A stretch of 64,000 nucleotides of DNA, from positions 1-64,000 of the forward strand of contig JABHWU010000053.1 in NCBI GenBank assembly GCA_018657625.1, given 5' to 3'. Below, in pieces: positions 12,857 through 61,823 of this stretch. The notes under the pieces are model-generated. The model was not told the DNA's origin and did not search any database. It saw only the letters and a list, made by a program, of their open reading frames with translations. Source of the stretch: Deltaproteobacteria bacterium (GTDB lineage: Bacteria; SAR324; XYD2-FULL-50-16). The position numbers and the translations under genes were made by a program. How positions within the stretch are numbered: position 1 is the first letter of the stretch; every line of letters begins with the position of its first letter.

Positions 12857-12927
12857 TATCAATTGATCAATATTACATGTCGTGCTAGTATTACCGTATT
12901 ACAAGTAATCATCTAATGGAGAATGAT

Positions 12928-13158
12928 ATGCAAACAGCAACAAGTAAACTTACTAAAAAGTATCAAGCAACAGTACCTAAAAATGTACGTAAAAAGCTTG
13001 AGCTTAAGGCTGGAGATGTCATTGCTTTTGACATTGACAATGATACAATTAAACTACGAAAAGCAAGACCCATTGACCTTGAATTTAGTTCTGCGCTGAT
13101 TCCCACTCTATGTGAATGGGATTCACAAAATGATGAGGATGCATATAATGATTTATGA
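12928..13158 (+). CDS. AbrB/MazE-like antitoxin
   Basis: A 76-residue DNA-binding antitoxin. The AbrB-type swapped-hairpin fold is recognised from TSKLTKKYQATVPKNVRKKL and ELKAGDVIAFDIDNDTIKLR (residues about 5-45), followed by an acidic tail likely to bind the toxin. The start at 12928 has GGAG seven bases upstream; the ATG at 12916 has none. The stop overlaps the toxin gene by 11 bases. Such antitoxins usually repress their own promoter with the toxin. Confidence 0.85.
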   Translation: MQTATSKLTKKYQATVPKNVRKKLELKAGDVIAFDIDNDTIKLRKARPIDLEFSSALIPTLCEWDSQNDEDAYNDL

Positions 13159-13489
13159 ACCATTTGACGTAGTTGTTGTTCCCTTTCCATTTACAGATTC
13201 ATCCAAAACGAAACGAAGACCAGCTCTTGTCTTGTCACAAAAGACCGAATTCACTAATAAGGTTGACCATTCAGTTTTGGCAATGATTACAAGTCAGAAG
13301 AACGATCCCTGGCCTCTTGATGTTACAATAAAAAACAAAATACAATCTGGTTTGACAGCCTCTTCTGTTGTAAGAATGAAAATTTTTACTCTTGATAATC
13401 GATTTATATTAAGAAAGATTGGTCATTTATCTAAATCTGACCAAACTAAAGTTAAAAAAAGCCTCTCAAGTTTATTTGATTATTTATAA
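13148..13489 (+). CDS. MazF/PemK-family toxin
   Basis: A 113-residue predicted mRNA endoribonuclease. It has the PemK-fold features FDVVVVPFPFTDSSKTKRRP, ALVLSQ, and a C-terminal LSKSDQTKVKKSLSSLF helix. The start at 13148 (MIYEPFDVVVV) lies inside the antitoxin gene, with GAGG upstream; earlier ATGs in the frame would encode the antitoxin tail in another frame. It forms a two-gene toxin-antitoxin cassette between attC-like sites B and C. MazF toxins cut mRNA; the target sequence cannot be read from the protein. Confidence 0.85.
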   Translation: MIYEPFDVVVVPFPFTDSSKTKRRPALVLSQKTEFTNKVDHSVLAMITSQKNDPWPLDVTIKNKIQSGLTASSVVRMKIFTLDNRFILRKIGHLSKSDQTKVKKSLSSLFDYL

Positions 13490-13497
13490 TAATTCCA

Positions 13498-13576
13498 ATC
13501 CAACACCAATTTCAGCTGCGTTGCCCAAAATGACGAAGGAGCGGTGGGTGACGTCAGCTGAAAACGCTCGTTATGC
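13498..13576. repeat. attC-like site C
   Basis: The best attC candidate. Core boxes are ATCCAAC (13498-13504; a full match to RYYYAAC) and GTTATGC (13570-13576). Between them TTTCAGCTG-CGTTGCCCA pairs with TGGGTGACGTCAGCTGAAA, with one extrahelical base and central mismatches, which is the signature of attC hairpins. The stop codon of the DUF1697 gene falls in the right-hand core. Confidence 0.7.
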
Positions 13577-14092
13577 GTTTTTTATTATTTTCATTAATTT
13601 ACTGATAGTATTAAAGTTTCTTCCAGTAGCTGAAACACCCATACATTTCTCAAGATTCGCAACAAGTCGCGACCTTCCGATACCATCTGGAGCATACAGA
13701 TAAAAAACCTTCCCATTTAATTCGTATTTCTCTGTAGCAGAAGATAGAGTTACCAGTTTCCCGATGTTTGGCGACTTAGGGACTTCGGATAAAAAGAAAA
13801 TATGTATGGACTTCGCTTCATCTGGACCGAAAGGATTACTTTCAATGGCTTTTTCAAATTCTGATCTTTCAAGAACCATAGTTTCTGGTTTAAAGCCGAA
13901 TTTTGATTCAATTGCTTTGCTTATAATCTCTCCGGGTTTCTTACTGCCACTGAGAACTACATTACCACTTTGAATGTAAGTTTTAACATTTTGATATCCG
14001 TTGGCTTCTAGTAAAGATGTCAGATCTCTCATTGGCAATATATTTTTACCACCGACGTTTATTCCTCTGAGTAAAAATAAATATGTTCTCAT
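13571..14092 (-). CDS. DUF1697 protein
   Basis: A 173-residue cytosolic protein of unknown function. The family motif is at the N-terminus: MRTYLFLLRGINVGGKNILP, followed by YIQSGNVVLSG near residue 40 and the C-terminal GRNFNTISKL. The start at 14092 matches the family N-terminus; an upstream ATG at 14131 adds 13 unrelated residues. DUF1697 genes are frequent in integron cassette arrays and other accessory regions, in keeping with the attC-like site at its 3' end. Confidence 0.85.
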   Translation of the reverse strand: MRTYLFLLRGINVGGKNILPMRDLTSLLEANGYQNVKTYIQSGNVVLSGSKKPGEIISKAIESKFGFKPETMVLERSEFEKAIESNPFGPDEAKSIHIFFLSEVPKSPNIGKLVTLSSATEKYELNGKVFYLYAPDGIGRSRLVANLEKCMGVSATGRNFNTISKLMKIIKNA

Positions 14093-14127
14093 AAGTATGC
14101 TTGATAATGCTAGCGTTATGTGCTGAT

Positions 14128-14463
14128 TCACCTATACTGCTGTGCGGCCAGTATAAAATATTTTTTCCATTGCTCAGACTTAGTAATATCTGGTTCTTCA
14201 AATAGAGCATATCCCTTTTTTATATGATCTTGAAGAAAGTATTTTTGAGGTTTAGCTATACCACTTCTTAATAATTTGGCGACTTCAGTATCTGATAGTT
14301 TGAATGCCAAACCACCTGGAAACCATAAAGCACAGATTGTTCCATTAATATATAATGCAGCACCACTGATAAAATGTTTCATTTCTATCGAAAAATCAAT
14401 TTCAGATTCAATTTTTAGTTCATTTATCTGGCTTGAAAGCTTTTCTAAGTATTCTTTTGCCAT
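14128..14463 (-). CDS. TfoX N-terminal-domain protein
   Basis: A 111-residue protein with the TfoX/Sxy N-terminal fold: EIDFSIEMKHFISGAALYIN, followed by GTICALWFPGGLAFKLSD and a C-terminal helix with WKKYFILAAQQYR. Stand-alone members of this domain are common small proteins without proven function and lack the C-terminal part that acts in competence regulation. The start at 14463 is chosen because family similarity begins there. It is the middle of three leftward genes between attC-like sites C and D. Confidence 0.75.
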   Translation of the reverse strand: MAKEYLEKLSSQINELKIESEIDFSIEMKHFISGAALYINGTICALWFPGGLAFKLSDTEVAKLLRSGIAKPQKYFLQDHIKKGYALFEEPDITKSEQWKKYFILAAQQYR

Positions 14464-14539
14464 GTATTTAATGCCACGTAACGCCGGTATCAACGCGTGC
14501 AAAGTGTAATTTGTGCAAAAATTAAAACTGCCAAGACTA

Positions 14540-14875
14540 CTACTGATCAAGTGATTTAATATGGTCTTTTTTAAATCTGAGATTCAATTCATTGCGAGAT
14601 TTTAATATCTCTGTTTTTGGCATTTTTTTACCACAAATAGTGGTTGATTTTGAGAAATTGACAATTGCATATGTTCCGTCGTCATCAATGTCAAACTGAA
14701 TGATGGTTTCATTTGTGTCTTCTCTTCGACATGATGGAAATACTTTTTTACCATGAAGGGGATGACCGGTTCGAATATTTTGTTTTAAGTATTCGATCCA
14801 TTCATCCGCAAATTCCAATGGAATCATTGTCCATGGCCACTTAATTTCAAAAACATCTGATTTTGATTCTTTCAT
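14540..14875 (-). CDS. Unrecognised 111-residue protein
   Basis: I do not recognise a family. The protein is soluble and mixed in charge, with the motifs IKWPWTMIPLEFADEWIEYL near the N-terminus, RTGHPLHGKKVFPS near residue 36, and FDIDDDGTYAIVNFSKS near residue 60. It is bounded on its 5' side by attC-like site D and is probably a cassette gene. Base composition matches its neighbours. No clear ribosome site is seen before the ATG at 14875. Confidence 0.6.
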   Translation of the reverse strand: MKESKSDVFEIKWPWTMIPLEFADEWIEYLKQNIRTGHPLHGKKVFPSCRREDTNETIIQFDIDDDGTYAIVNFSKSTTICGKKMPKTEILKSRNELNLRFKKDHIKSLDQ

Positions 14876-14891
14876 CTCTATAGGTTATCTT

Positions 14892-14964
14892 CTCTAACGG
14901 TTGCATCACCCGCCAGCCCCAAAGTGAAGCGGCGGGGATGGTCAGGTGTATGCTTCTGTTGTGT
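14892..14964. repeat. attC-like site D
   Basis: Core boxes CTCTAAC (14892-14898) and GTTGTGT (14958-14964) flank a GC-rich imperfect stem: GCATCACC pairs with GGTGTATGC with one extra base, and CCCGCC with GGCGGG further in. GC content is much higher than in the surrounding DNA, as often seen in attC sites. It separates leftward and rightward genes. Confidence 0.65.
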
Positions 14965-15039
14965 GTTTGACATTAAGCTTGACTCAAAAACGGTATGTAA
15001 TTACAGTAATTATATAAACGCCAAAACTGGAGACTTAAC

Positions 15040-15288
15040 ATGGCTCAAGTCAGCGAATTAAAACTCGTAAAGATCGGAAATTCCAAGGGAATCCGAATAC
15101 CAAAATCAATTCTTCAAAAATATGGATTTACTGACTCAATCCAAATTGAAGAGAAAGAAAATGGAATTTTGTTGCATAACAGTAAGATTTCAAAATTATC
15201 CTGGGAGGACACATTTAAAGCCATGAAGTCTGAAAAAGAGGACTGGACTGACTTCGATAACGCCCTGCAAGATGGTTTAGATGACTAA
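15040..15288 (+). CDS. MazE-like antitoxin
   Basis: An 82-residue AbrB/MazE-fold antitoxin: ELKLVKIGNSKGIRIPKSIL, then QKYGFTDSIQIEEKENGILL, followed by an acidic C-terminal half (KEDWTDFDNALQDGLDD) that would bind the toxin. GGAG lies upstream of the ATG. It overlaps the toxin gene by 8 bases. Its sequence is unlike that of the antitoxin at 12928, so the two pairs are separate acquisitions, not a local duplication. Confidence 0.9.
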   Translation: MAQVSELKLVKIGNSKGIRIPKSILQKYGFTDSIQIEEKENGILLHNSKISKLSWEDTFKAMKSEKEDWTDFDNALQDGLDD

Positions 15289-15619
15289 AAAATCTTTTCC
15301 CAAAAGGTATGAAATCTTTTATGCAGACTTAAATCCGACTATAGGCAGTGAAATCAAAAAAGTCCGACCCGTCGTGATCATTAGTCAAAATGAAATGAAC
15401 AAATATTTGAAAACGGTTGTTGTTTGTCCCCTTACCTCAAAACTTCATCCAATGTGGAAAAGCCGAATTCAAATAGAATGTGCTAAAACTCAGTCCGAAA
15501 TAGCTATTGATCAAATTCGTACGATTAGCAAACAAAGACTGAAAAAGAAAATTGACTCATTGGCCCCGGATATATCTGCTCAACTCAGATTCATTATTAC
15601 TGAAATGTACGGTGAATAG
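15281..15619 (+). CDS. MazF-family toxin
   Basis: A 112-residue PemK/MazF ribonuclease toxin. Motifs are RYEIFYADLNPTIGSEIKKV, RPVVIISQNEMN, VVVCPLTSK and SEIAIDQIRTISKQRLKKKI, in the usual order and at the usual length. The nearest relatives by motif are the MazF group with DLNPTxGSExxKxRP. The pair with the gene at 15040 is a complete toxin-antitoxin cassette between attC-like sites D and E. The stop codon is TAG. Confidence 0.92.
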   Translation: MTKKSFPKRYEIFYADLNPTIGSEIKKVRPVVIISQNEMNKYLKTVVVCPLTSKLHPMWKSRIQIECAKTQSEIAIDQIRTISKQRLKKKIDSLAPDISAQLRFIITEMYGE

Positions 15620-15638
15620 TACTCCTTTTTGATTACCC

Positions 15639-15712
15639 ACACAACACCTGTTTAAACCGCATTCAGTGCCGTTTTTTGGCGGTGAATGTCGGTCTTTAGC
15701 CATTTGTTAAAC
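15639..15712. repeat. attC-like site E
   Basis: Core boxes ACACAAC (15639-15645) and GTTAAAC (15706-15712; a full match to GTTRRRY). Between them CCGCATTCAGTGCCG pairs with GGCGGTGAATGTCGG, with an extrahelical base, and TTTAAA with TCTTTAG outside. The right arm GTCGGTCTTTAGC is shared with site A. Confidence 0.7.
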
Positions 15713-15802
15713 CGTGATAAAACTATATTGACTAAAATTCACAAAGAAACCATAATGGTATTAAAACGAAACTAAATAAATAAATAAATAAAGGAGAAAT
15801 CA

Positions 15803-16045
15803 ATGCCCGCTATAACTGTAAAGAATATCCCAGACAATCTGTATAAAAACCTTAAACTTGCTGCTCAAGTGCATCATCGAAGCATTAATTCTGAAATCAT
15901 TGCTTGCCTTGAAAGAGAATTAATGATTAACAAAGTGACGGTTAGAAAAAGAATCGAAAATGCTCGTCTACTAAGATCCAAATTGATAAATGAAATTGTT
16001 GATGCTGGTGAAATAGAGTCCCTAATTAATATGGGGAGACCATGA
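15803..16045 (+). CDS. FitA-like ribbon-helix-helix antitoxin
   Basis: An 80-residue Arc/FitA-type antitoxin. The N-terminal ribbon-helix-helix reads ITVKNIPDNLYKNLKLAAQV followed by HHRSINSEIIACLERELM, typical of the FitA/VapB group; the C-terminal half is basic then acidic and would embrace the toxin. AAAGGAG is at good spacing before the ATG. It overlaps the PIN toxin by 4 bases (ATGA). Confidence 0.88.
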   Translation: MPAITVKNIPDNLYKNLKLAAQVHHRSINSEIIACLERELMINKVTVRKRIENARLLRSKLINEIVDAGEIESLINMGRP

Positions 16046-16452
16046 TTGTAATCGATACGAATATCATTTGTTATCTGTACTTGCCTACAAAATATTCTGC
16101 AAATGCTGAACTACTATTAAAACAGGAGCCACAATGGGCAGTTCCTGTTTTGTGGAAAAGTGAGTTCAGAAATGTATTAATCGGTTATCTTCGAAAAAAT
16201 TTATTAGATTTAAAAACTGTCATATCCCTACTTCAAGAAGCAGAAGATTTGCTTTCGGATCAAGAATACCAAGTATCATCACTATCGGTAATGAATTTAG
16301 CTTCTCAGTCTGATTGTTCAACTTATGATTGTGAGTTTATCGCATTGGCTGACATTCTCAAAACCAAACTTATCACTCAAGACAAACAAATTCTACGAAA
16401 CTTCCCATCAACTGCATATTCCCTTGAGTCATATCTCAATCCAGAGGTCTAA
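16042..16452 (+). CDS. VapC-family PIN-domain toxin
   Basis: A 136-residue PIN ribonuclease. The acidic metal-binding residues are in place: Asp5 (VIDTN), Glu41 (WKSEFRN), Asp96 (STYDCEFIALA) and Asp114 (LITQDK). VapC toxins cleave tRNA or rRNA and are held inactive by the linked antitoxin. It is translationally coupled to the antitoxin gene at 15803. Its stop codon overlaps a degenerate attC-like core at 16447, suggesting that the pair is the last cassette of the cluster. Confidence 0.9.
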   Translation: MIVIDTNIICYLYLPTKYSANAELLLKQEPQWAVPVLWKSEFRNVLIGYLRKNLLDLKTVISLLQEAEDLLSDQEYQVSSLSVMNLASQSDCSTYDCEFIALADILKTKLITQDKQILRNFPSTAYSLESYLNPEV

Positions 16453-16771: not shown

Positions 16772-16820
16772 TTGGCCAACTCACCAGATAAATATTGGTG
16801 AGTTGACCAAAATATTTTTA
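16772..16820. terminator. Strong inverted repeat between convergent genes
   Basis: TTGGCCAACTCACCA (16772-16786) and TGGTGAGTTGACCAA (16796-16810) form a 15-base stem with one G-T pair and a 9-base loop. On the plus strand it is followed by AATATTTTT. It lies between the rightward VapC gene and the leftward corrinoid-protein gene and may terminate both transcripts. Otherwise 16499-16928 holds no gene. Confidence 0.55.
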
Positions 16821-16860
16821 CGAATGACCACTATATTTTTACGAATGACCACTATATTTT
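16812..16860. repeat. 21-bp tandem direct repeat
   Basis: Two perfect 21-base units (ATATTTTTACGAATGACC plus ACT) at 16812-16832 and 16833-16853, with a third partial copy (ATATTTT). The period of two helical turns would suit a regulatory site, but no downstream gene reads away from it. It could equally be a mobile-element footprint. Confidence 0.6.
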
Positions 16861-16928: not shown

Positions 16929-17564
16929 TTAACCAATTAATTCAGTCAGTAATCTGGCTGCTCCACCGGCATCCTCTGCATAACCATCAGCACCAATTTT
17001 ATCAGCCCAGGCCTGACTGACAGGGGCACCACCGACAATCGTTTTAATCTTATCTTTTAGAGATTTTTCAACCAACAATTTTTCCAGATCAGCCTGGGCT
17101 TTCATGGTTGTTGTCAGCAAAGCACTGGTAGCAATAACATTAGCATTGACATCGATAGCCTTATCCACAAATGCTTGAGAAGAAACATCCCTTCCCAGAT
17201 CGTGCACAGTGAAACCACTGGCTGATAGAAAAGACTCGACAATACTTTTTCCGATATCATGAATATCACCTTTGACCGTTCCCAAAACAACAACACCTTT
17301 AGACACAATTTCACCACCGGACACCGCTTTGTTACAAAGATCTGCGGCTAATTTCATAGCGTCTGATGACATCACCAGCTCCGGTAGAAAGATCTCTTCA
17401 TTTTCAAATTTCTCTCCAATTTCAGAAATGCCCGGAACAAAACCTTGTTCCAGCAGTTCAGCTGCTGCTATCCCTTCTGCCAGGGCTTTTTCCACAACAA
17501 TCTTTACCTGGTCCTGATCCGCTTCAATAATTGCTTTTCTAGCCTCATTAAACAGTTGATTCAT
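16929..17564 (-). CDS. Corrinoid (methyl-carrier) protein for methylamine methyltransferases
   Basis: A 211-residue B12-binding protein of the MtmC/MtbC/MttC group. A helical cap domain (residues about 1-85, with ELLEQGFVPGISEIGEKFEN) precedes a Rossmann-like domain whose GDIHDIGKS motif gives the lower axial ligand His102; the SALLTTTM and VGGAPVSQAWADKIGADGYA motifs close the cobalamin site. The protein accepts a methyl group on Co(I) from the substrate methyltransferase and hands it to a second methyltransferase. It is the last gene of the leftward cluster, 128 bases after the MttB gene. GGGGATAA precedes the ATG. Which methylamine it serves cannot be read from sequence; the linked MttB makes MttC most likely. 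Confidence 0.93.
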   Translation of the reverse strand: MNQLFNEARKAIIEADQDQVKIVVEKALAEGIAAAELLEQGFVPGISEIGEKFENEEIFLPELVMSSDAMKLAADLCNKAVSGGEIVSKGVVVLGTVKGDIHDIGKSIVESFLSASGFTVHDLGRDVSSQAFVDKAIDVNANVIATSALLTTTMKAQADLEKLLVEKSLKDKIKTIVGGAPVSQAWADKIGADGYAEDAGGAARLLTELIG

Positions 17565-17692: not shown

Positions 17693-19147
17693 CTACTCAC
17701 CACTTTTAGCGATTTTTATCAGCTCTTCTGCTAAACCATCTTCTAATGGTTTCGGTTGATGTGTTGTCAGAATCTTTTTTGCTTTTTCAACAGAGACCTG
17801 ATGTAAATCTCTGGAACCTTTCTTTTCCCAACCACCACGCATTCTGCGATCAAACAACTCCGCCTGGACTTGCTCGGCTCTTAAATGCTTCATAGTGTGT
17901 TTTTGACCCAGAAAATTACCGGCAATGCCAACCTGTTTTATGAGATCAACGGCCATCAATTCTTTATTAACATCGATACCGTAGATGGTTCTTTTAATCA
18001 TAGCCGCAATTTCATCATCCATGACCATTTGACTAAAACTTAATATTTGACCCAATTCCAGCATTCCCATACCGTATATCAGATTGGCCCCTGCCAACGC
18101 TGGTAACATTGCGGTTATGGTTTTTTCGTGACCGGCTTGAGCGTCAGATAGTTTAGAATCCGCCTACGATCCCCCAACATAGCAAGGTACTTCATAATAA
18201 TGCGCTAACTCAGCCACAGCCGCACTAATCATACCCATTTCAGGGGCACCAACCGTGGCAGTGGCAGTCTTCATGTAAAAAGTCGTGGTTGAGGTTCCAT
18301 AAATACAAGGAGTTCCCGGATTTGTCAGTTGGGCCAACACTATCCCACTGAGCACTTCCGCATTATGGATCACTAGGGTTCCAGCCAGAGGAATCGGGGC
18401 TGTAGCTCCGGACATGGCCATACTAAGCACATCGATGGGCATCCAGTTTTTGGCTGATTCGATAATCACCGCACAACATTCATCAATAAGTTGTAAAGGA
18501 CTGGTCGGACAAACACCAAAGGAAACAATGGGTCGATATTTCAGAGTTTCTTTATCACCCACAACAGCGGCTGCCATTTCGATCATTTTTTGGCAATGGT
18601 CACCGGACTCAGCATCCATGGCAATATGTTTGGTGGTATTAGGCAAAGTAACTGCACAACCGATAAGATCGCGATAACTTTCCGGCTCGTCTTCCGCAGA
18701 CACCGGTGGTGATGCAACATCGACATTTTCCAGGGCATCACATAATATAGCCATATTTTTAACATCTTCCAGGTTTGAATCTCTAATTTCACCGGTTTCA
18801 AGATCCTGGGTTAAGGCACCGGTATTAAATGGCGTAAACCCTACTTCCCTGCCACCCATCATAAAATCCTGGGCCTTGTCACGACCTGCCAGTAGTATAT
18901 GGCTTGGACATTGCGCCATCGCCTCATTGACAAGATGATTAGGAAAGCGAACCACTTTTGTCTTCTTATTTACCCAGCAACCACCCTTTTCAAAAATTTT
19001 CAGGGCTTCATCATGATCTACAAAAACCCCCGTTGATTGCAAAACATCAAGTGTTGCAACGTGAATCTGATCCAATTCATCTTCAGTAAGAGACTTCAAC
19101 CCCCAACCTTTCAGCGCGTTTATACCGGCCATCGGTACCTGCCTCAT
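17693..19147 (-). CDS. mttB: Trimethylamine:corrinoid methyltransferase MttB with in-frame amber (pyrrolysine)
   Basis: A 484-residue protein if TAG at 18164-18166 (codon 328) is read as pyrrolysine. The two halves are in one frame: ...VPCYVGGS-TAG-ADSKLSDAQAGHEKT... . The amber lies near Pyl334 of archaeal MttB, and sequence on both sides is conserved with the second copy at 23558. The N-terminal half carries CPSHILLAGR, SFGVCPTSPLQLIDECCAVI and VIHNAEVLSGIVLAQLTNPG; the C-terminal half carries LPALAGANLIYGMGMLELGQ. The enzyme would move a methyl group from trimethylamine to the corrinoid protein. GGAGG precedes the ATG at 19147. Reading it as two genes is unlikely, because the second half would lack a start with a ribosome site. 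Confidence 0.92.
18164..18166 (-). other. In-frame TAG, predicted pyrrolysine codon of mttB copy 1
   Basis: Codon 328 on the minus strand. It sits in a conserved context (CYVGGS before, ADSK after) that is the same in the second mttB, where it is CYVGGT before and SDSK after. Confidence 0.9.
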
Positions 19148-19369: not shown

Positions 19370-20293
19370 TTAACCTCTTTCCATTTTCACCAAAAAGATA
19401 CCACTGCCAATAATAAACAAAATGCCAATCAGCGTGGTTATTGATGGTATTTCATTCCAAATTAAATACCCCATTAAAGCCGTTGGTACCATCCCACAAT
19501 ACTCAAATGGTGTAATGGTAGAAGCTTTTGCTAACCGATAGGCCTGGGAAAGGCAATATAATCCCATGGCTGCAATAATACCAAGAGTAATCAATTTAAG
19601 CAGATCGGAAAATGTAGGAATCACCCAGGCCCGGGTTAGAAATTCCATACTGGGATGAACAGTTAAGGTAGGTATGCCACTTCCCATAAATAGACCAAGA
19701 ACACCTGACACAATAAAAGAACAGATTATAAAATAAACACTCATCACAGAAGCGCTTTCCGTAATGGCCATTCGTCTCGTAATCATCACTCCTCCTGCGT
19801 AGGCCAAAGCGGCGATAACAGGTAAAATGGCTGCCGGATCAACAATTCCAATACCTGGATGGACAATAATGATTACACCAATAAAACCTGTTAATAATAA
19901 CATCCATCGATGTAGCGAAACCTGCTCCTTAAGTAGAATAACAGACAAGAGGGTCACAAAAAAAGGTGAGGCATAAAATAAAGCGATAACATCGGCCAAA
20001 GGCATCGCTGCTATTCCCAGATAGAAAAAGGTATAAGCAAGCAACATTAATAATGACCGTAAAATATGCAAACCGATTTTTTTGGATTTTAAACTGGCAA
20101 AACCGGAATCAAAATAAACCAATATCAGACAAGGGATAAACGCAGTAATAGCTCTGCAAAACATAATTTCAAAAACAGGATACCCACCACTTAGAGAGCG
20201 TATAATTACATCCTGGATAGAAAAAACCACTACCCCTGCCAGTAAAAACAAAATGCCTAAAACTGCCTTATCTTCCTGATAATTGATCGTCAT
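19370..20293 (-). CDS. EamA/DMT-family transporter
   Basis: A 307-residue inner-membrane protein with ten hydrophobic segments in two EamA halves. The first shows GVVVFSIQDVIIRSL and PLADVIALFYASPFFVTLLS, the second AMGLYCLSQAYRLAKASTIT and PFEYCGMVPTALMGYLIWNE. DMT-superfamily carriers move small metabolites, often outward. AGAGG lies before the ATG. It sits between a non-pyrrolysine MttB homologue and an mttB gene on the same strand, so it may carry a methylated amine or its demethylated product. The substrate is not predictable from sequence. Confidence 0.88.
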   Translation of the reverse strand: MTINYQEDKAVLGILFLLAGVVVFSIQDVIIRSLSGGYPVFEIMFCRAITAFIPCLILVYFDSGFASLKSKKIGLHILRSLLMLLAYTFFYLGIAAMPLADVIALFYASPFFVTLLSVILLKEQVSLHRWMLLLTGFIGVIIIVHPGIGIVDPAAILPVIAALAYAGGVMITRRMAITESASVMSVYFIICSFIVSGVLGLFMGSGIPTLTVHPSMEFLTRAWVIPTFSDLLKLITLGIIAAMGLYCLSQAYRLAKASTITPFEYCGMVPTALMGYLIWNEIPSITTLIGILFIIGSGIFLVKMERG

Positions 20294-20382: not shown

Positions 20383-21867
20383 TTAAAGAAGTTCAGTTTC
20401 AGCGGCTTTAATGATTTTTTGCATTTCTGCTTTGATCTGCGCTTCGAGAGGAGTTGGCTGATGGTTGTTAAGTATCCATCTGGCTTTTTCCAGAGCTATT
20501 TCATGGGGATCTTTAAACTCGTTGTCCTGACCTGACCATTGGTGAGATACTCCCGGATTCCACAGTTTTCGCATGTTTTCAACAGTATATTTAGAAGCCA
20601 GGTAATGGCCTCCGGGCCCGGTTTGGGTTATTTCTTCTACAGCTAAAGCGTAGTCATCTACAACGATACCCTTAGTCATCGCCTCAATGGAGTTGATCAC
20701 TTCGTCTTCAAGAATAATTGCTTCATGAGACAGGGTTGTGTAGAGTTCTGTTAATCCCATATTAGGAATCATATCCGGCGCGGTCTGAAAAACAAACATA
20801 GCATCAACCGCTGACTCCTTTCCGTGACGCCAGGTTCCTGGTTTTTGGGTATCACCGGATCCAAAGCCGCACATTACCGGTAAATCATAGTAATGCCCTA
20901 ATTGCGAGATCCCTGCATGAAGCAGATGTTGCATCCTGGAAGAAGACATACTCCCTCCGGTTAAAGGATTCATGGTAACGCTGAAAAATGAATAATAGCA
21001 GGGTGCTCCAGGGTGAACCAATTGTAAATAACAGATGGTGCTTAAAATTTCAGCATTTCCCTGCACAAAAGTTCCAGCCACAGAGGCAGGTGCTGTTGCC
21101 CCCAAAGTCGGCATAGTAGCCACTCCAACCGGTAGGCCGGCTTCAGCGAAAACTAATCCAGCCTCAAGAGACTCAGCATCTTGATTTAGTGGAGATACGG
21201 GGCATATCAGGGCTGAAAGTGGTGGCCTTTTTTTGGTTTGATCACTGCCACCACCAATCAGTTTTGCCATTTCCACCACATATTTAGAAGGAGTTTTTTT
21301 TACACTACTAATGATATGGACATGTTTTTCAGTATTGTTAAAAGAAGCTTCAACTTCATGAAGCGGCATCAAAGCAGTTGGAACATCATGCGCACTGACC
21401 ATTGGCCAGTAGTAACTACAGGAAGGCAAGTAATCACAAATTCTGGCCATATCCGCCACATCCTGTTTGACAGATTGACGTCGCTCTCGAGTGTTAATAT
21501 CAATGGTAGCCATCCCGGTACCGGCATTCGCTAAATAGGTTTTTTCACCGTTTAAAACCATATCCAGTTCCCTTCGTCCACGGGTTGATGCCATGGTATA
21601 AGTTCGCGGAGCCCTGGCAATAGTGTCCATCAATAGCTTAGTAGGAATCTTTACCCGTTGTTCTTTAAAATCAACGTTTGCTCCTGCTTCTGCAAAAATT
21701 TTCAACGCTTTTTCAGAAGGAAAACGAACACCGGTCGTTTCAAGAACCATCAAGGTTGCTTCATGGATCTTTTTTACATCCAAATCTGATAAAAACTGGA
21801 TTTGTAGCTCGGGTTTCATTGAAATGGGCTTAATTGAGGCAGTTGGCTTCTTATTTTGTGTATTCAT
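20383..21867 (-). CDS. MttB-family methyltransferase without pyrrolysine (MtgB-like group)
   Basis: A 494-residue member of the trimethylamine methyltransferase family (COG5598) that has no amber codon; the region where Pyl occurs in MttB reads LPVMCGFGSGDTQKPGTW. Non-Pyl members demethylate quaternary amines such as glycine betaine, proline betaine or carnitine, so a quaternary ammonium substrate is likely. Other motifs: TKLLMDTIARAPRTYTMAST, TYLANAGTGMATID, CPVSPLNQDAESLEAGLVFA and TQTGPGGHYLASKYTVENMR. The start at 21867 has GGAG upstream, separated from the ATG by exactly nine C residues, an unusual homopolymer that could vary by slippage. Within the cluster it would supply a second, quaternary-amine entry. 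Confidence 0.88.
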   Translation of the reverse strand: MNTQNKKPTASIKPISMKPELQIQFLSDLDVKKIHEATLMVLETTGVRFPSEKALKIFAEAGANVDFKEQRVKIPTKLLMDTIARAPRTYTMASTRGRRELDMVLNGEKTYLANAGTGMATIDINTRERRQSVKQDVADMARICDYLPSCSYYWPMVSAHDVPTALMPLHEVEASFNNTEKHVHIISSVKKTPSKYVVEMAKLIGGGSDQTKKRPPLSALICPVSPLNQDAESLEAGLVFAEAGLPVGVATMPTLGATAPASVAGTFVQGNAEILSTICYLQLVHPGAPCYYSFFSVTMNPLTGGSMSSSRMQHLLHAGISQLGHYYDLPVMCGFGSGDTQKPGTWRHGKESAVDAMFVFQTAPDMIPNMGLTELYTTLSHEAIILEDEVINSIEAMTKGIVVDDYALAVEEITQTGPGGHYLASKYTVENMRKLWNPGVSHQWSGQDNEFKDPHEIALEKARWILNNHQPTPLEAQIKAEMQKIIKAAETELL

Positions 21868-21876
21868 GGGGGGGGG
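21868..21876 (-). repeat. C9 homopolymer between ribosome site and start codon
   Basis: On the coding strand the sequence is GGAG followed by nine C and the ATG of the MttB-like gene. A change in tract length would alter the Shine-Dalgarno to start spacing. This is a possible translational phase-variation tract. Confidence 0.7.
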
Positions 21877-21938
21877 CTCCAATACTATCGTTATTTAATA
21901 TCCTGATATTTTTTGATTCATTTTCGTTTGAGTCATCA

Positions 21939-22098: not shown

Positions 22099-23511
22099 TT
22101 ATATAAAATCCCTGATATTAGCCTTAAACAGATTCACAGAATTAATCTCTATATCAAGCAATTTTGCAATCTTACACTTAGCTTGAATACCTTTTGAGCC
22201 ACCACTCATCGAAATAATGGTTCCAATATCAAGTTCTTCCCGTAATTCCAGCATTTTTTCTTCATCAGTCAGATCTATAACCTCAACCCCCAATTTTTTG
22301 GCAACATATTGTTTGGCATCATTAATTTTCATTTTGCGGGACATTTGCATCCAGGCAACCAGATCTCCGGTTGTCCGCAAGCCTCCCATAGCAGAACCCA
22401 TAATATGTGCGCACTGTGAACCAAGGGTATCACCTGTGCCTATCTACAAGCCATCGGCCATACCGATTTGAACCAGGGATTTTGAAGCTCTGGTGACTGC
22501 ACCAATCGGAGGAACTTCATATAAAGGCACGCCACAAACACCCATACCAACATTGGGATGAATTGGGATATTAGCCACTTCAGCTGTTGCCTTAACCATG
22601 GTCACAGAACGCGACAAGTTCCAGGGAGTGGTTTCGGTTGTGTTAACATTGACAGTGGGGCCAAAAATATCTACGCCTGCCGCTTCTGCTACTTTCACCA
22701 ACTGATGAGGATAGAGTCCTGCCAGTCGAGTATCCTCAAAGAAAATCTTTCCATGCATCCCCAGAACAAATTCAGATGCCATTCCGAGTTCCATATACAT
22801 GTTCGGAGCGATTTTTTTCAATTCACGAACGGCTTCCAGCGCTGCAGCCATATCCGCATCACCGGCAGAACCACTGGTGTCAAAATTCATGGCTTCGCAA
22901 CCGACCTGATTCAATTCTTTACCAATATAAACCAGATCACTTTTTAACTGTTGCTTAGCATCCAACTGGGCTTGTCGTGCTTCATCAATTTTACCTATGG
23001 GCAAAAGTTCTGCCGGATTGTCAAAAGGACCATCCGGTCGAAAATAAAGTCCCATATTGGGTTGTGACCCATAAAACATTGGAATCGTGGTCGTTTGTGA
23101 AGTCGAATAGTATTCATTGGCTTCATAATGAATCACCGCTTTGGCCGGTTTATAACTAAAATCATTATGCCCCATACAGCAGGTATCACCACAGGCTGCC
23201 CTTTCCCAGTTCAAGATGGCTGTGGGACGACTCATGGGAATTCCCATCCCACTATTTTCCTGATCCGCATAATAGGTCATAGAACAGGAATCATCGGTGA
23301 CAACAACCTCTTCCCCTGGTGAAACACTAACGATTCTTCCAGGTTCACAAAAGATATCCAGCAACTGCTCCCTTTCTTCTTTGGTTAAGGATGGAATTTG
23401 GGCACGATCAGATGCATCATTGGTTCCCCTTATAATATCTTCAGCAATCTCATCTTTTGTCATCATAATGCGTCCACCATCACCCAAATGAGTCATCACT
23501 TGGTTGTGCAT
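22099..23511 (-). CDS. mtbB: Dimethylamine:corrinoid methyltransferase MtbB with in-frame amber (pyrrolysine)
   Basis: A 470-residue protein when TAG at 22444-22446 (codon 356) is read as pyrrolysine. Archaeal MtbB carries Pyl at residue 356, and the length is close to the archaeal enzyme. Context is [32 protein letters not shown]-terminal motifs include [40 protein letters not shown] and [20 protein letters not shown]. MtbB transfers a methyl group from dimethylamine to its corrinoid protein. AGGAG lies upstream of the ATG at 23511. It lies 46 bases downstream of the second mttB and is surely co-transcribed. Dimethylamine is the product of MttB, so the pair gives sequential demethylation. 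Confidence 0.93.
22444..22446 (-). other. In-frame TAG, predicted pyrrolysine codon of mtbB
   Basis: Codon 356 of the minus-strand reading frame, at the residue number known for Pyl in archaeal MtbB. The frame remains open for another 114 codons with good similarity and ends in TAA. Confidence 0.92.
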
Positions 23512-23557: not shown

Positions 23558-25012
23558 TTATTCAACACTTTTTGCAATTTTCACCAATTCTTCCGCCAGT
23601 CCATCTTCCAATGGTGCCGGTTTGTGGTCCGCAATTAAAGCTTTGGCACGTTCAATGGAAGCCTGATTTAGATCTTTAGCGCCTTTCTTTTCCCAGCCAC
23701 CACGCATACGCCGGTCCAGTAATCCGGCCTGAACTTGCTCATCCCTCAAATGTTTCATGGTATGTTTTTGACCAAGAAAATTACCGCCGATTCCAACTTT
23801 TTTTATCAGATCTACTGCCATCAATTCATCGTTAACATCAATTCCACGTACGATTCTTTTAACCATGGCTGCTATTTCATCATCCATTACCATTTGGCTA
23901 AAGCTTAATGTCTGTCCCATTTCTAACATGCCCATTCCATACATCATATTGGCACCTGCCAATGCGGGTATTAAACTGGAAAGGGTTTTTTCATGACCGA
24001 CCTGGGCATCAGATATTTTCGAATCGCTCTAGGTACCTCCGACATAGCAGGGAACCTTATAATAGTGAGCCATAGATGCTGCAGCTGCACTAATCATTGC
24101 CATTTCCGGTGCCCCCACAGTCGCCGTTCCATGTTTCATGTAAAATGTGGTTGTGGAACTACCATAGATAACGGGTGTCCCCGGATTGGTTATTTGAGCC
24201 AGAACAATCCCGGCTAGTACTTCAGCATTATGAACGATGATTGTGCTGGCCAAGGGAATCGGAGTAGACGCCCCGGACATTGCCATACTTAACACATTTA
24301 TCGGTAGATGATTTTTGGATGCTTCAATGAGTACGTCACAGCAATCACCAATCAATTGTAATGGACTGGTGGGGCAGACACCAAATGAAATAATTGGTCT
24401 GATCTTTAGTTCATCCGTTCCACCAACAATTGCTGCCGCCATTTCTATCACTTTTTTACAGCGGGCGCCTGACTCTGCATCTCCATCAATATGCTTGGAA
24501 GTATTTGTAAAACTAACAGCTGCAGCGTGAAGCTCAAAAGAACTGTCTGGCATGTCTGTTGGTGAAACCGGTGGTGTATAAATATCCACGTTTTCCAGGG
24601 CATCACACAATATCGCCATCTCTTTAACGTCTTTCAGGGTGGATTCTCTAATCTCTCCTGTCTCCAGATCTTCGGTTTGAACAGCCGTACCAAAAGAGGT
24701 GAAACCAATGTTTTTACCTCCCATCATGAAGTCATTTTTGGGATCTCTTCCGGCCAGCAGAATATTACTGGGACTTAAACGAATGGCCTCGTTCACCAGA
24801 TGTTTAGGAAAGCGAACGACTTTTGTTTTATGGTTAACCCAGCATCCTCCTTTCTCCAGAATTTTCAATGCCTCATCATGATCAACCAGAAGTCCGGTGG
24901 ACTGCATGATTTCAAGTGTTCCCACATGCAGACGCTCCATCTGATCTTCCGTTAAAGAATTAAGGCCCCAGCCGATCAACGAATTGATTCCAGCCGATGG
25001 TGTACTTCTCAT
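23558..25012 (-). CDS. mttB: Second trimethylamine:corrinoid methyltransferase MttB with in-frame amber (pyrrolysine)
   Basis: A 484-residue paralogue of the gene at 17693, with the amber codon again at position 328 (24029-24031): YVGGT-TAG-SDSKISDAQVGHEKT. Both copies have identical length and share most of the C-terminal residues (QKHTMKHLR, DRRMRGGWEKKG, PLEDGLAEELVKIAK). GGAGG lies directly before the ATG at 25012. It is the second gene of the leftward cluster, after the aminotransferase, and is followed by mtbB. The two copies may differ in substrate, expression or cognate corrinoid protein; only one corrinoid gene is in view. Confidence 0.92.
24029..24031 (-). other. In-frame TAG, predicted pyrrolysine codon of mttB copy 2
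   Basis: Codon 328 of the minus-strand frame, at the same codon as in mttB copy 1, with conserved residues on both sides. Confidence 0.9.
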
Positions 25013-25155: not shown

Positions 25156-26583
25156 TTAACATTGGGCAGGTTTCCATAATCCTTCCTGTTCCAGATCTTT
25201 CATGGCTCTGATAATTCCTTCCCGCAATATATCAACCATTTCATCAATTTGCGTTTTAGTGATGATTAAAGGCGGCGACATAACATTCATATTCACAACC
25301 GGTCGCACCATCAATCCCAATTTCTGACAATGATTATCGATTCGCAGTCCCATCTTATAATCCAGCTCAAGTGGGCTCTCTTCATCTTTCTTTAATTCAC
25401 ATTCAACACAGGCCATTAAACCCTGTCCCCTGACATCTCCAACAATCGGAATGTCACGAAGCTCTTGCAAACGGTTTAAAAAATGAGGGCTCACTTCTCG
25501 AACGTGTTCCAGTATCTTCTCATTTTCCATAATCTCGATATTTTTCAAAGCTGCCGCACAACTGACCGGATGCCCGGAATATGTATAACCATTAGAGAAT
25601 ACAGCACCTTCAGCTTTTTCACCACCCATTTCCTTCATCAAGCGATCTGAAACGATACAGGCTCCCAATGGCAGATAGCCGGAGGTTAATCCTTTGGCGC
25701 TGGTAATGATATCAGGTTGAATATCAAATACCGGTTCAGAGGCGAACCAATATCCCAAGCGACCAAATCCGGTTACCACTTCATCTGAAATGTAAAGAAC
25801 ATCATATTTTCGGCAGACATCCAGACACATGCGATGATATCCAGGTACCGGAACAACCACACCACCGGAAGCTAAAATGGGTTCCGCGATAAAAGCACCA
25901 ACTTTATCCGGACCCAACTCTAAAATGGTATCTTCCAGTTCCTGAACCTTGGCATCTCTAAATTCTTGCTCGGTCATTTCTTTAGAGCGCCGGTATGGAT
26001 TCGGAGAACTAATAAATTTAACAAGATCATCGGCAGCATCCTGATAGTTTTTATCACGAAACTTTCCGGAAACAGTGGCACTTAAATAGGTACTGCCATG
26101 ATAGGCATCTTCCCTGGATATTGTTATCTTTTTTTCCGGACGACCTCTAAAATTATTATAAAACATCATCAACCGTAAAGCAGTATCAACTGCGGTCGAG
26201 CCACCTGTAGTTAAAAAAACCGTATTCAAATCACCAGGTGTCAGGCTGGCTACTTTTTCAGCCAACTGGGCTGAAACATCACAAGTCAGATTAAAGGGTG
26301 AAAAATAAGGTAGTTTTGCAGCTTGTTCCGCTATCGCTTCAACCATTTCCTTTCTGCCGTAACCAATCTGCGTGCACCACATACCCCCAGGACCATCAAT
26401 CAGTTTTTTACCATCTGAATCATAGAGATAGATCCCTTCACAACTGATTGCCGCAGTACGTTCATTGTGACCATGATATCCCATGTCTTCCCAGGGATGT
26501 AAAAAATGTCGGTTATCTCGTTCTCTGATTTTTTTTGTTTTGTGAACTTCATTGGAAATTGATTGAATATTTGCTGTTTTCAT
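25156..26583 (-). CDS. Class III (omega-amino acid:pyruvate type) aminotransferase
   Basis: A 475-residue PLP enzyme. The start at 26583 has GAGG upstream, and the extra 19 residues of the longer frame look unlike the family. Motifs are LIDGPGGMWCTQIGYGRKEM near residue 70, FLTTGGSTAVDTALRLMM, the PLP phosphate region YISDEVVTGFGRLG, and the PLP lysine in ITSAKGLTSGYLPLGA. The GPGGMWC start resembles taurine-, beta-alanine- or similar omega-amino acid:pyruvate aminotransferases. As first gene of the leftward cluster it may act on an amine or amino acid left after demethylation. The exact substrate is open. Confidence 0.85.
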   Translation of the reverse strand: MKTANIQSISNEVHKTKKIRERDNRHFLHPWEDMGYHGHNERTAAISCEGIYLYDSDGKKLIDGPGGMWCTQIGYGRKEMVEAIAEQAAKLPYFSPFNLTCDVSAQLAEKVASLTPGDLNTVFLTTGGSTAVDTALRLMMFYNNFRGRPEKKITISREDAYHGSTYLSATVSGKFRDKNYQDAADDLVKFISSPNPYRRSKEMTEQEFRDAKVQELEDTILELGPDKVGAFIAEPILASGGVVVPVPGYHRMCLDVCRKYDVLYISDEVVTGFGRLGYWFASEPVFDIQPDIITSAKGLTSGYLPLGACIVSDRLMKEMGGEKAEGAVFSNGYTYSGHPVSCAAALKNIEIMENEKILEHVREVSPHFLNRLQELRDIPIVGDVRGQGLMACVECELKKDEESPLELDYKMGLRIDNHCQKLGLMVRPVVNMNVMSPPLIITKTQIDEMVDILREGIIRAMKDLEQEGLWKPAQC

Positions 26584-26703
26584 ATCTCTACCTCTAGAAA
26601 AAACATTTCCGGGGAAGTGTTGGGTTAAACCTATTTTCAACGAAACACCCTTTTAAAAGGGAATCAACCCAAACATATTTAAATCAATCTTCGCTGTCAA
26701 GTA

Positions 26704-26922: not shown

Positions 26923-27549
26923 ATGATCCGAAAACATCCAAAACCAAAAGGACGCGAAGCGATAAAAGCCTGGAATCACAATAAAATTATTGAAGCTTCC
27001 ATCGAAGTTATTGCTAAATATGGAATCGCGGGTACTACTATATCACGTGTTGTGGAATTAGCTGATGTTTCCAGAGGATTAGTAAATATTCATTTTAAGA
27101 GTAAGGACATATTGCTAAAAGAAGCGTTAAATTACATGTTCGCAGAATACAACAATACCATCGACAACGCCGTAAAAAAAGCTGGTAGCAATCCTGTCGA
27201 TCAAATCAAAGCCATTATCACCGCTAACCTTGACCCTTCAATTCTGAATAAAAAAAATATGGGCGTCTGGTTTGCTTTCCGTGCCCAAATTCGATCCATG
27301 CCGGAACACCTGGAAATGGTTGAAACCCGGGATAAATGTTTAACCAATCATTTACTAAGAATTTTTGAAACCTTAAATTTAGAAGGTGGATATAAAATTC
27401 CAGTTAAATCTGTTGTCAGGGGATTCATGGTAATGTTGGAAGGTTATTGGTTGGATTTCCACTTACATCCCAGAAATTATGATCGCGAAGAGGCGAAAAA
27501 CACCTGTCTTTTTTTTCTTGCTGGATTATTCCCAAAACTTTTTAAGTAA
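26923..27549 (+). CDS. TetR-family (BetI-like) transcriptional regulator
   Basis: A 208-residue repressor. The N-terminal helix-turn-helix (residues about 17-62) reads IIEASIEVIAKYGIAGTTIS then RVVELADVSRGLVNIHFKSK, close to BetI. The C-terminal domain (FMVMLEGYWLDFHLHPRNYD) also resembles BetI, whose ligand is choline. The gene is divergent from the methylated-amine cluster and probably represses it, with a quaternary or methylated amine as inducer. An operator candidate lies at 26704-26723. There is no clear Shine-Dalgarno before the ATG. Confidence 0.9.
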   Translation: MIRKHPKPKGREAIKAWNHNKIIEASIEVIAKYGIAGTTISRVVELADVSRGLVNIHFKSKDILLKEALNYMFAEYNNTIDNAVKKAGSNPVDQIKAIITANLDPSILNKKNMGVWFAFRAQIRSMPEHLEMVETRDKCLTNHLLRIFETLNLEGGYKIPVKSVVRGFMVMLEGYWLDFHLHPRNYDREEAKNTCLFFLAGLFPKLFK

Positions 27550-60791: not shown

Positions 60792-61823
60792 ATGATTAAA
60801 CAAAATCTGAATACAATGGGGCAAAGCTTTCAATCAGAAATTGAAAAGGCCACAAACATTGATGAAATCGACAACATCAAAGTCAAATACCTCGGGAAAA
60901 AAGGGAAATTAGCAGATTTAATGAAACAGCTTAAATCTCTGGACAAAGAAGAAAAGATTGAAATTGGTAAACAGGCAAATCTATTTAAAACTCAATTTCA
61001 AGATCAAATTAAAGAGAAAAGTAAACAACTCAAACGCGTTAAATTTGATCAACAAATGGAAAACGAATGGGTTGATATCACATTGGATCCAATTAAGACA
61101 CAGATGGGAAGTTTACATCCCATCACCATGGTGCAAAATAAGTTAGAATACATTTTTGAATCTATGGGTTTCCAGGTTTTGGATGGCCCACACATTGAGT
61201 CGGAATATTATAATTTCGAAGCCTTAAATATCCCGACACATCATCCTGCCAGGGATATGCAGGATACTTTTTATTTTGAAGATGGCAATCTTCTCAGAAC
61301 ACAAACGTCTACCATTCAAATCAGAGGAATGGAAAGTCTGGAGCCACCACTTCGAATCATAGGCACCGGAAAAGTATTCCGCTGTGAAAGGACAGATGCC
61401 TCACATGATTCTTGCTTCCATCAACTGGAAGGAATGATGGTGGATAAAAACATCTCAGTTGCACATTTAATTCATTTTATGAAAACCATGCTAAGTGAGA
61501 TTTTCGAAAGTGATGTAAAGGTTCGCCTCAGACCGGGTTATTTCCCTTTTGTCGAGCCGGGATTTGAATTAGACATGGCCTGTTTGCTTTGTCAGGGGAA
61601 AGGCTGCAGTGTTTGCAGTCGTGTGGGTTGGATTGAATTGCTCGGGTGTGGTATGACACATCCTAATGTCCTTAAAGCAGGTGGGGTAGACCCTTCTAAA
61701 TATTCTGGTTTTGCTTTTGGAATGGGTATGGATCGGTTAGCAATGATGCGGTATGGTATTACAGATATCAGGCCACTTCATGGTGGTAATCTTAACTTTA
61801 TGCGCCGATTTACACTAAAATAA
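60792..61823 (+). CDS. pheS: Phenylalanyl-tRNA synthetase alpha subunit
   Basis: A 343-residue class II synthetase subunit. The N-terminal coiled coil is followed by motif 1 (FESMGFQVLDGPHIESEYYN), motif 2 (FRCERTDASHDSCFHQLEGM) and motif 3 (GFAFGMGMDRLAMMRYGITD). The insertion CLLCQGKGCSVC carries four Cys, a metal-binding feature also seen in some bacterial PheS. It charges tRNA(Phe) as an alpha2-beta2 enzyme with PheT, whose gene follows 58 bases on. Its start is two bases after the gatA stop. No attenuator-like Phe-rich leader is visible upstream. Confidence 0.95.
   Translation: MIKQNLNTMGQSFQSEIEKATNIDEIDNIKVKYLGKKGKLADLMKQLKSLDKEEKIEIGKQANLFKTQFQDQIKEKSKQLKRVKFDQQMENEWVDITLDPIKTQMGSLHPITMVQNKLEYIFESMGFQVLDGPHIESEYYNFEALNIPTHHPARDMQDTFYFEDGNLLRTQTSTIQIRGMESLEPPLRIIGTGKVFRCERTDASHDSCFHQLEGMMVDKNISVAHLIHFMKTMLSEIFESDVKVRLRPGYFPFVEPGFELDMACLLCQGKGCSVCSRVGWIELLGCGMTHPNVLKAGGVDPSKYSGFAFGMGMDRLAMMRYGITDIRPLHGGNLNFMRRFTLK

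Follow-up and report, generated by a model that had tools for sequence, protein, structure and literature searches.

The window, meaning the whole 64,000-nucleotide stretch of DNA analysed, contains a putative trimethylamine methyltransferase gene that is interrupted by an in-frame TAG. Does this codon specify pyrrolysine (Pyl), as a sequence-only reading had predicted, and is the bacterium that carries it likely to read it in this way? The features that bear on these questions, in window positions, are the following.

16929..17564, minus strand: mttC-type corrinoid protein, the methyl acceptor (TIGR02370 pyl_corrinoid, 216.6 bits; cut-off 215.3)
17693..19147, minus strand: mttB1, trimethylamine:corrinoid methyltransferase (TIGR02369, 704 bits; cut-off 525; full-length match to MttB 7xcl/7xcm)
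17693..17695, minus strand: terminal stop TAG of mttB1, with an in-frame TAA eleven codons further on
18067..18166, minus strand: Rfam PYLIS_3 match whose first base lies on the mttB1 TAG (82.5 bits; gathering threshold 38)
18164..18166, minus strand: in-frame TAG of mttB1, predicted pyrrolysine, codon 328 of 484 (aligns with X334 of 7xcl; TAG in L012-L015)
19370..20293, minus strand: EamA/DMT-type transporter inside the cluster (TIGR00950, 50 bits, below cut-off)
20383..21882, minus strand: MttB-superfamily paralogue without a TAG (TIGR02369, 389 bits, below the cut-off of 525)
22099..23511, minus strand: mtbB, dimethylamine:corrinoid methyltransferase (TIGR02368, 515 bits; cut-off 369)
22444-22446, minus strand: in-frame TAG of mtbB, codon 356 (PYLIS_2, 55.2 bits, beginning on the TAG)
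23558..25012, minus strand: mttB2, second trimethylamine methyltransferase (TIGR02369, 689 bits; cut-off 525)
24029-24031, minus strand: in-frame TAG of mttB2, codon 328 (PYLIS_3, 64.7 bits, beginning on the TAG)
25156..26640, minus strand: class III aminotransferase marking the cluster's upstream end (NF005447, 703 bits; cut-off 618)
26923..27549, plus strand: TetR/BetI-like protein encoded divergently from the cluster, a candidate regulator (TIGR03384, 95 bits, below cut-off)

The in-frame TAG of mttB1

Translation of the minus strand gives 327 residues, the TAG, 156 further residues and a terminal stop, in agreement with the earlier placement of the TAG (18164-18166) at codon 328 of the first mttB copy. 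The codon had also been described as interrupting one continuous family alignment, and the read-through protein indeed forms a single, full-length match to TIGR02369 (residues 15-483). Its position, previously given only as near Pyl334 of archaeal MttB, falls exactly on residue 334 of 7xcl, a Methanosarcina-type MttB crystal sequence in which that residue is X, non-standard (Pyl). The homologous column holds a TAG in six sequences, namely mttB1, mttB2 and homologues from four MAGs labelled Desulfobacterales (L012), Deltaproteobacteria (L013), Gemmatimonadota (L014, a doubtful label, as the record consists of contigs strung together with Ns) and Actinomycetota (L015). The codon is retained down to 50% identity, with pS of 0.66-0.80, which is near saturation. 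Because synonymous sites were saturated, dN/dS ratios were discarded in favour of amino-acid identity and pN.

Amino-acid identity of mttB1 before and after the TAG is 0.80 and 0.78 with L013, 0.65 and 0.79 with L012, and 0.83 and 0.85 with L014; with mttB2 included alongside these three, the ranges are 65-83% and 76-85%. Residues are thus conserved on both sides, as had been claimed, and to a similar degree. Judged by amino-acid identity, these comparisons show that the part of the protein encoded past the TAG is under selection. Beyond the TAG, 156 codons in mttB1, 156 in mttB2 and 114 in mtbB remain open with no other lesion. The only in-frame stop in these three intact genes is at the catalytic Pyl position, which excludes pseudogenes and base errors. 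Sequencing error, which the sequence-only reading had named as a way in which it could fail, is not borne out, and coincidence is no more credible, since three genes in the window carry a TAG at the place expected for their families.

A split gene with re-initiation of translation was considered and rejected: mttB1 and mttB2 do not share a candidate downstream start (ATG at 18109 versus TTG at 23962), and such starts would lose about 18 conserved residues past the TAG.

Rfam PYLIS models begin on all three in-frame TAGs in the window (PYLIS_3, PYLIS_3 and PYLIS_2). We took these matches as homology and not as a required signal, because no PYLIS element is reported to be required for Pyl insertion (PMC8211752).

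Given the exact alignment to the Pyl position, the retention of TAG in four MAGs and the two sibling genes, it is very unlikely, on sequence grounds, that the mttB1 TAG is an ordinary stop, an error or the mark of a pseudogene. These same comparisons strongly support codon 328 as a predicted Pyl codon.

The methylamine gene cluster and its host

The genes around mttB1 appear to form a methylamine cluster with close counterparts in other genomes. The corrinoid protein is 75% identical to the product of the gene adjoining mttB in L013, and mtbB is 78.7% identical to that of L012; a comparison of mtbB with solved structures gave no match. The paralogue at 20383..21882, 74.5% identical to that of L012, has Ser at the Pyl column and probably acts on another methylated amine. 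A search for RamA (TIGR04270) reached at best 122 bits in the window's own genome, against a cut-off of 500, and the genome of L012 also stayed below it (144 bits).

Several lines of evidence indicate that the contig and its mtt genes are resident in the host. PheS (60792-61823) is 60-70% identical to that of same-family genomes and at most 45% identical to that of the relatives' genomes. A sensor kinase on the left flank has many homologues in the host family, where it is expanded, and no match in the genomes of L012 or L013. The tetranucleotide profile of the mtt block correlates at 0.742 with other host contigs versus 0.632 with the genome of L012, and neighbouring blocks have the same host preference. 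These data bear on the suggestion that the TAGs are sequencing errors, or that the mtt block comprises another organism's genes on a chimeric contig. The draft genome has 3.2% contamination, and these genes are absent from its relatives in the phylum, as such an artefact would predict. However, a base-calling error is excluded by the independent occurrence of TAG at three homologous sites, host-type genes flank the block on both sides, and the block itself fits host composition, so that we consider an artefact highly improbable.

If the cluster is resident, where did it come from? In phylogenetic analysis mttB2 groups with L012 (support 96/96), and the closest mtbB (79%) and paralogue (74%) that we found are also those of L012. 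The closest sequences to mttB1 are those of L014 and L013, the latter sharing its mttB-mttC arrangement, and the gene order and content of the cluster are common to L012 and L013. From these relationships, the cluster was most likely acquired laterally. A search for mobile-element ends flanking the cluster recovered only short two-copy repeats, nothing diagnostic. Carriage on a plasmid was rejected, as no relative in plasmid records reached 60% identity, the best being at about 31%.

Some other features of these sequences deserve mention. Past the corrinoid gene lie two adjoining 21-base direct repeats (16804-16845; TGACCAAAATATTTTTACGAA). Just outside the cluster, at 12916-16452 on the plus strand, the translations suggest three toxin-antitoxin-like pairs, two AbrB/MazF-like and one VapBC-like. 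Among the comparison records, CP070792.1 (L053, L055) is titled a Gemmatimonadota chromosome and consists of contigs joined by runs of N; its mttB is cut off by Ns, and its pylS, two pylB pieces and pylT are scattered, such that neither its taxonomy nor its gene order can be trusted.

Pyrrolysine machinery and the use of UAG

We searched the window's own genome for the proteins of pyrrolysine biosynthesis and charging. The best scores for PylS (23 bits), PylD (25 bits), PylB (22 bits) and PylC (25 bits) were all below cut-off. For tRNA-Pyl we used a covariance model built from four sequences, namely two from L032 and L034 together with Desulfitobacterium and Methanosarcina pylT. It recovered none in the assembly, where the top match, at 32.7 bits, was tRNA-Phe; positive genomes scored 72-90 bits. 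No tRNA with a CUA anticodon was present among the tRNAs found. As positive controls, the genomes of L012, L014 and L015 gave PylS and PylC above cut-off and tRNA-Pyl at 72-90 bits, while in the genome of L013 (JAFDBP01), a MAG with an intact TAG-containing mttB, neither PylS, PylB nor PylC exceeded the cut-off. Across 52 genomes of the host phylum (one class), the window's genome included, no PylS was detected, and no other TAG-containing mttB was present among them.

Taken literally, the absence of every pyl gene from the assembly, which the sequence-only reading had said would refute it, is what we found. Its weight is limited in a MAG that is 79.8% complete and whose tRNA set includes none for His, Cys, Asn or Ile. 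This degree of completeness, together with the four absent tRNA kinds, implies that about one fifth of single loci are missing, so the absence of a pyl locus is unsurprising. The pyl genes are mostly close together (PMC3941956) and would therefore go missing together. In the genome of L012 the pyl genes and mttB occupy separate contigs, and so little can be read into the fact that contig C28, 99 kb long, has no pyl genes. The pyrrolysine prediction thus holds for the identity of the codon, on the basis of family models, the alignment to residue 334, TAG in four genomes and two sibling genes. Decoding in the host stays a prediction, as the assembly has no pylS, pylB, pylC, pylD or pylT.

One explanation for these absences is that the mtt cluster was transferred without pyl genes, in which case UAG would stop translation and the three proteins would be truncated and non-functional. 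The lack of any pyl gene in the assembly, of PylS in the phylum and of another TAG-containing mttB among its genomes are all as this explanation would predict. Set against it are the long open stretches past the TAGs, sequence there that is not relaxed, a host-like composition that argues against very recent arrival, and the 20% of the genome that the assembly does not cover. On balance we regard it as unlikely.

A different possibility, prompted only by the missing pyl genes, is that a non-pyrrolysine suppressor tRNA or programmed readthrough places an ordinary residue at UAG. Yet the tRNAs found include none with a CUA anticodon, the codon is the catalytic Pyl site, and TAG is kept in every Pyl-clade relative compared, making this explanation very doubtful. 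We give equally little credence to a species that truly lacks pyl genes and decodes its three intact TAG-containing methyltransferase genes by means outside the known PylRS/tRNA-Pyl pair.

TAG is also in general use as a stop in this genome. Of the 90 genes no shorter than 120 aa in the stretches that we read, about 20 terminate in it, among them mttB1 and genes for complex I subunits. The genome of L012, which encodes Pyl, has a similar share, 26%, around its mttB and pyl genes. Bacteria have been reported to handle Pyl through regulation and not codon avoidance (PMC3941956), and in Acetohalobium UAG denotes Pyl only during growth on trimethylamine (PMC8211752). For these reasons, the lack of UAG depletion is not evidence against Pyl. 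In an Actinomycetota MAG with pyl genes (L015 / L054), TAG is the stop codon in 16 of the 26 long ORFs, which is unexpected given the high GC content, though this count comes from overlapping stretches and simple ORF calling and may be inflated.

Together, these observations favour the reading that a laterally acquired cluster for methylamine demethylation includes mttB1, mttB2 and mtbB as intact genes, and that the in-frame UAGs of these genes are read as pyrrolysine. We assign this reading a probability of roughly 0.83, an estimate that combines a prior near 0.95 for intact Pyl genes implying the machinery with a chance of about 0.25 of missing that machinery in the assembly.

Relation to known systems and implications

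For this organism, decoding, the inserted amino acid and enzyme activity are inferred from the genes. According to the pyrrolysine reading, a pylTSBCD locus would lie in the unassembled part of the host genome and would probably be expressed when methylamines are present, allowing tRNA-Pyl to outcompete release factor 1 at the in-frame UAGs. The Pyl imine would then activate trimethylamine in MttB or dimethylamine in MtbB. From there the methyl group would pass to the corrinoid protein (16929-17564) and on to a second methyltransferase that probably delivers it to tetrahydrofolate.

The closest described counterparts are those of marine Deltaproteobacteria reported by Kivenson and colleagues, with an MttB amber at 327/485, several mttB copies and mtbB (PMC8318568). 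The window resembles them in its amber position (328/484), its multiple mttB copies, its amber-containing mtbB and a cognate corrinoid gene nearby; however, those organisms encode pyl genes, whereas none were recovered here and the host belongs to a small, separate phylum. Methanosarcina MttB (7xcl/7xcm) is homologous over its full length and has its Pyl residue (334) in the column of the TAG, but is archaeal, methanogenic and distant in sequence. Bilophila Pyl-MttB (PMC7593587) is likewise a bacterial TAG-containing mttB located away from pyl genes and truncated in public annotation, although Bilophila has a complete pyl set and no dimethylamine methyltransferase gene. MtgB and other non-Pyl MttB proteins (2qne, 9yce) belong to the same superfamily, and the paralogue at 20383-21882 is of their type; unlike the Pyl-type genes here, they have no amber codon and act on other methylated amines. 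The best reading of the cluster from its sequence is therefore as putative genes for Pyl-dependent demethylation of trimethylamine and dimethylamine. Genes of this kind are known from marine Deltaproteobacteria; the lineage of the host and the missing machinery are what set this case apart.

The cluster places Pyl-type methylamine genes in a phylum in which the other 51 genomes examined show none, which suggests that their lateral spread has not been confined to Deltaproteobacteria and Firmicutes. As the sequence-only reading anticipated, standard gene calling hides such TAG-containing methyltransferase genes by splitting each into two false ones. The terminal codon of mttB1 adds a further point of interest. 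The homologous codon is TAA or TGA in mttB2, L012 and L013 versus TAG in mttB1. Reading of UAG as Pyl would predict an mttB1 product longer by 11 residues at its C terminus. With one UAG to read and one at which to stop, mttB1 would be a modest experiment of nature on how the two are distinguished in a bacterium that does not avoid the codon.
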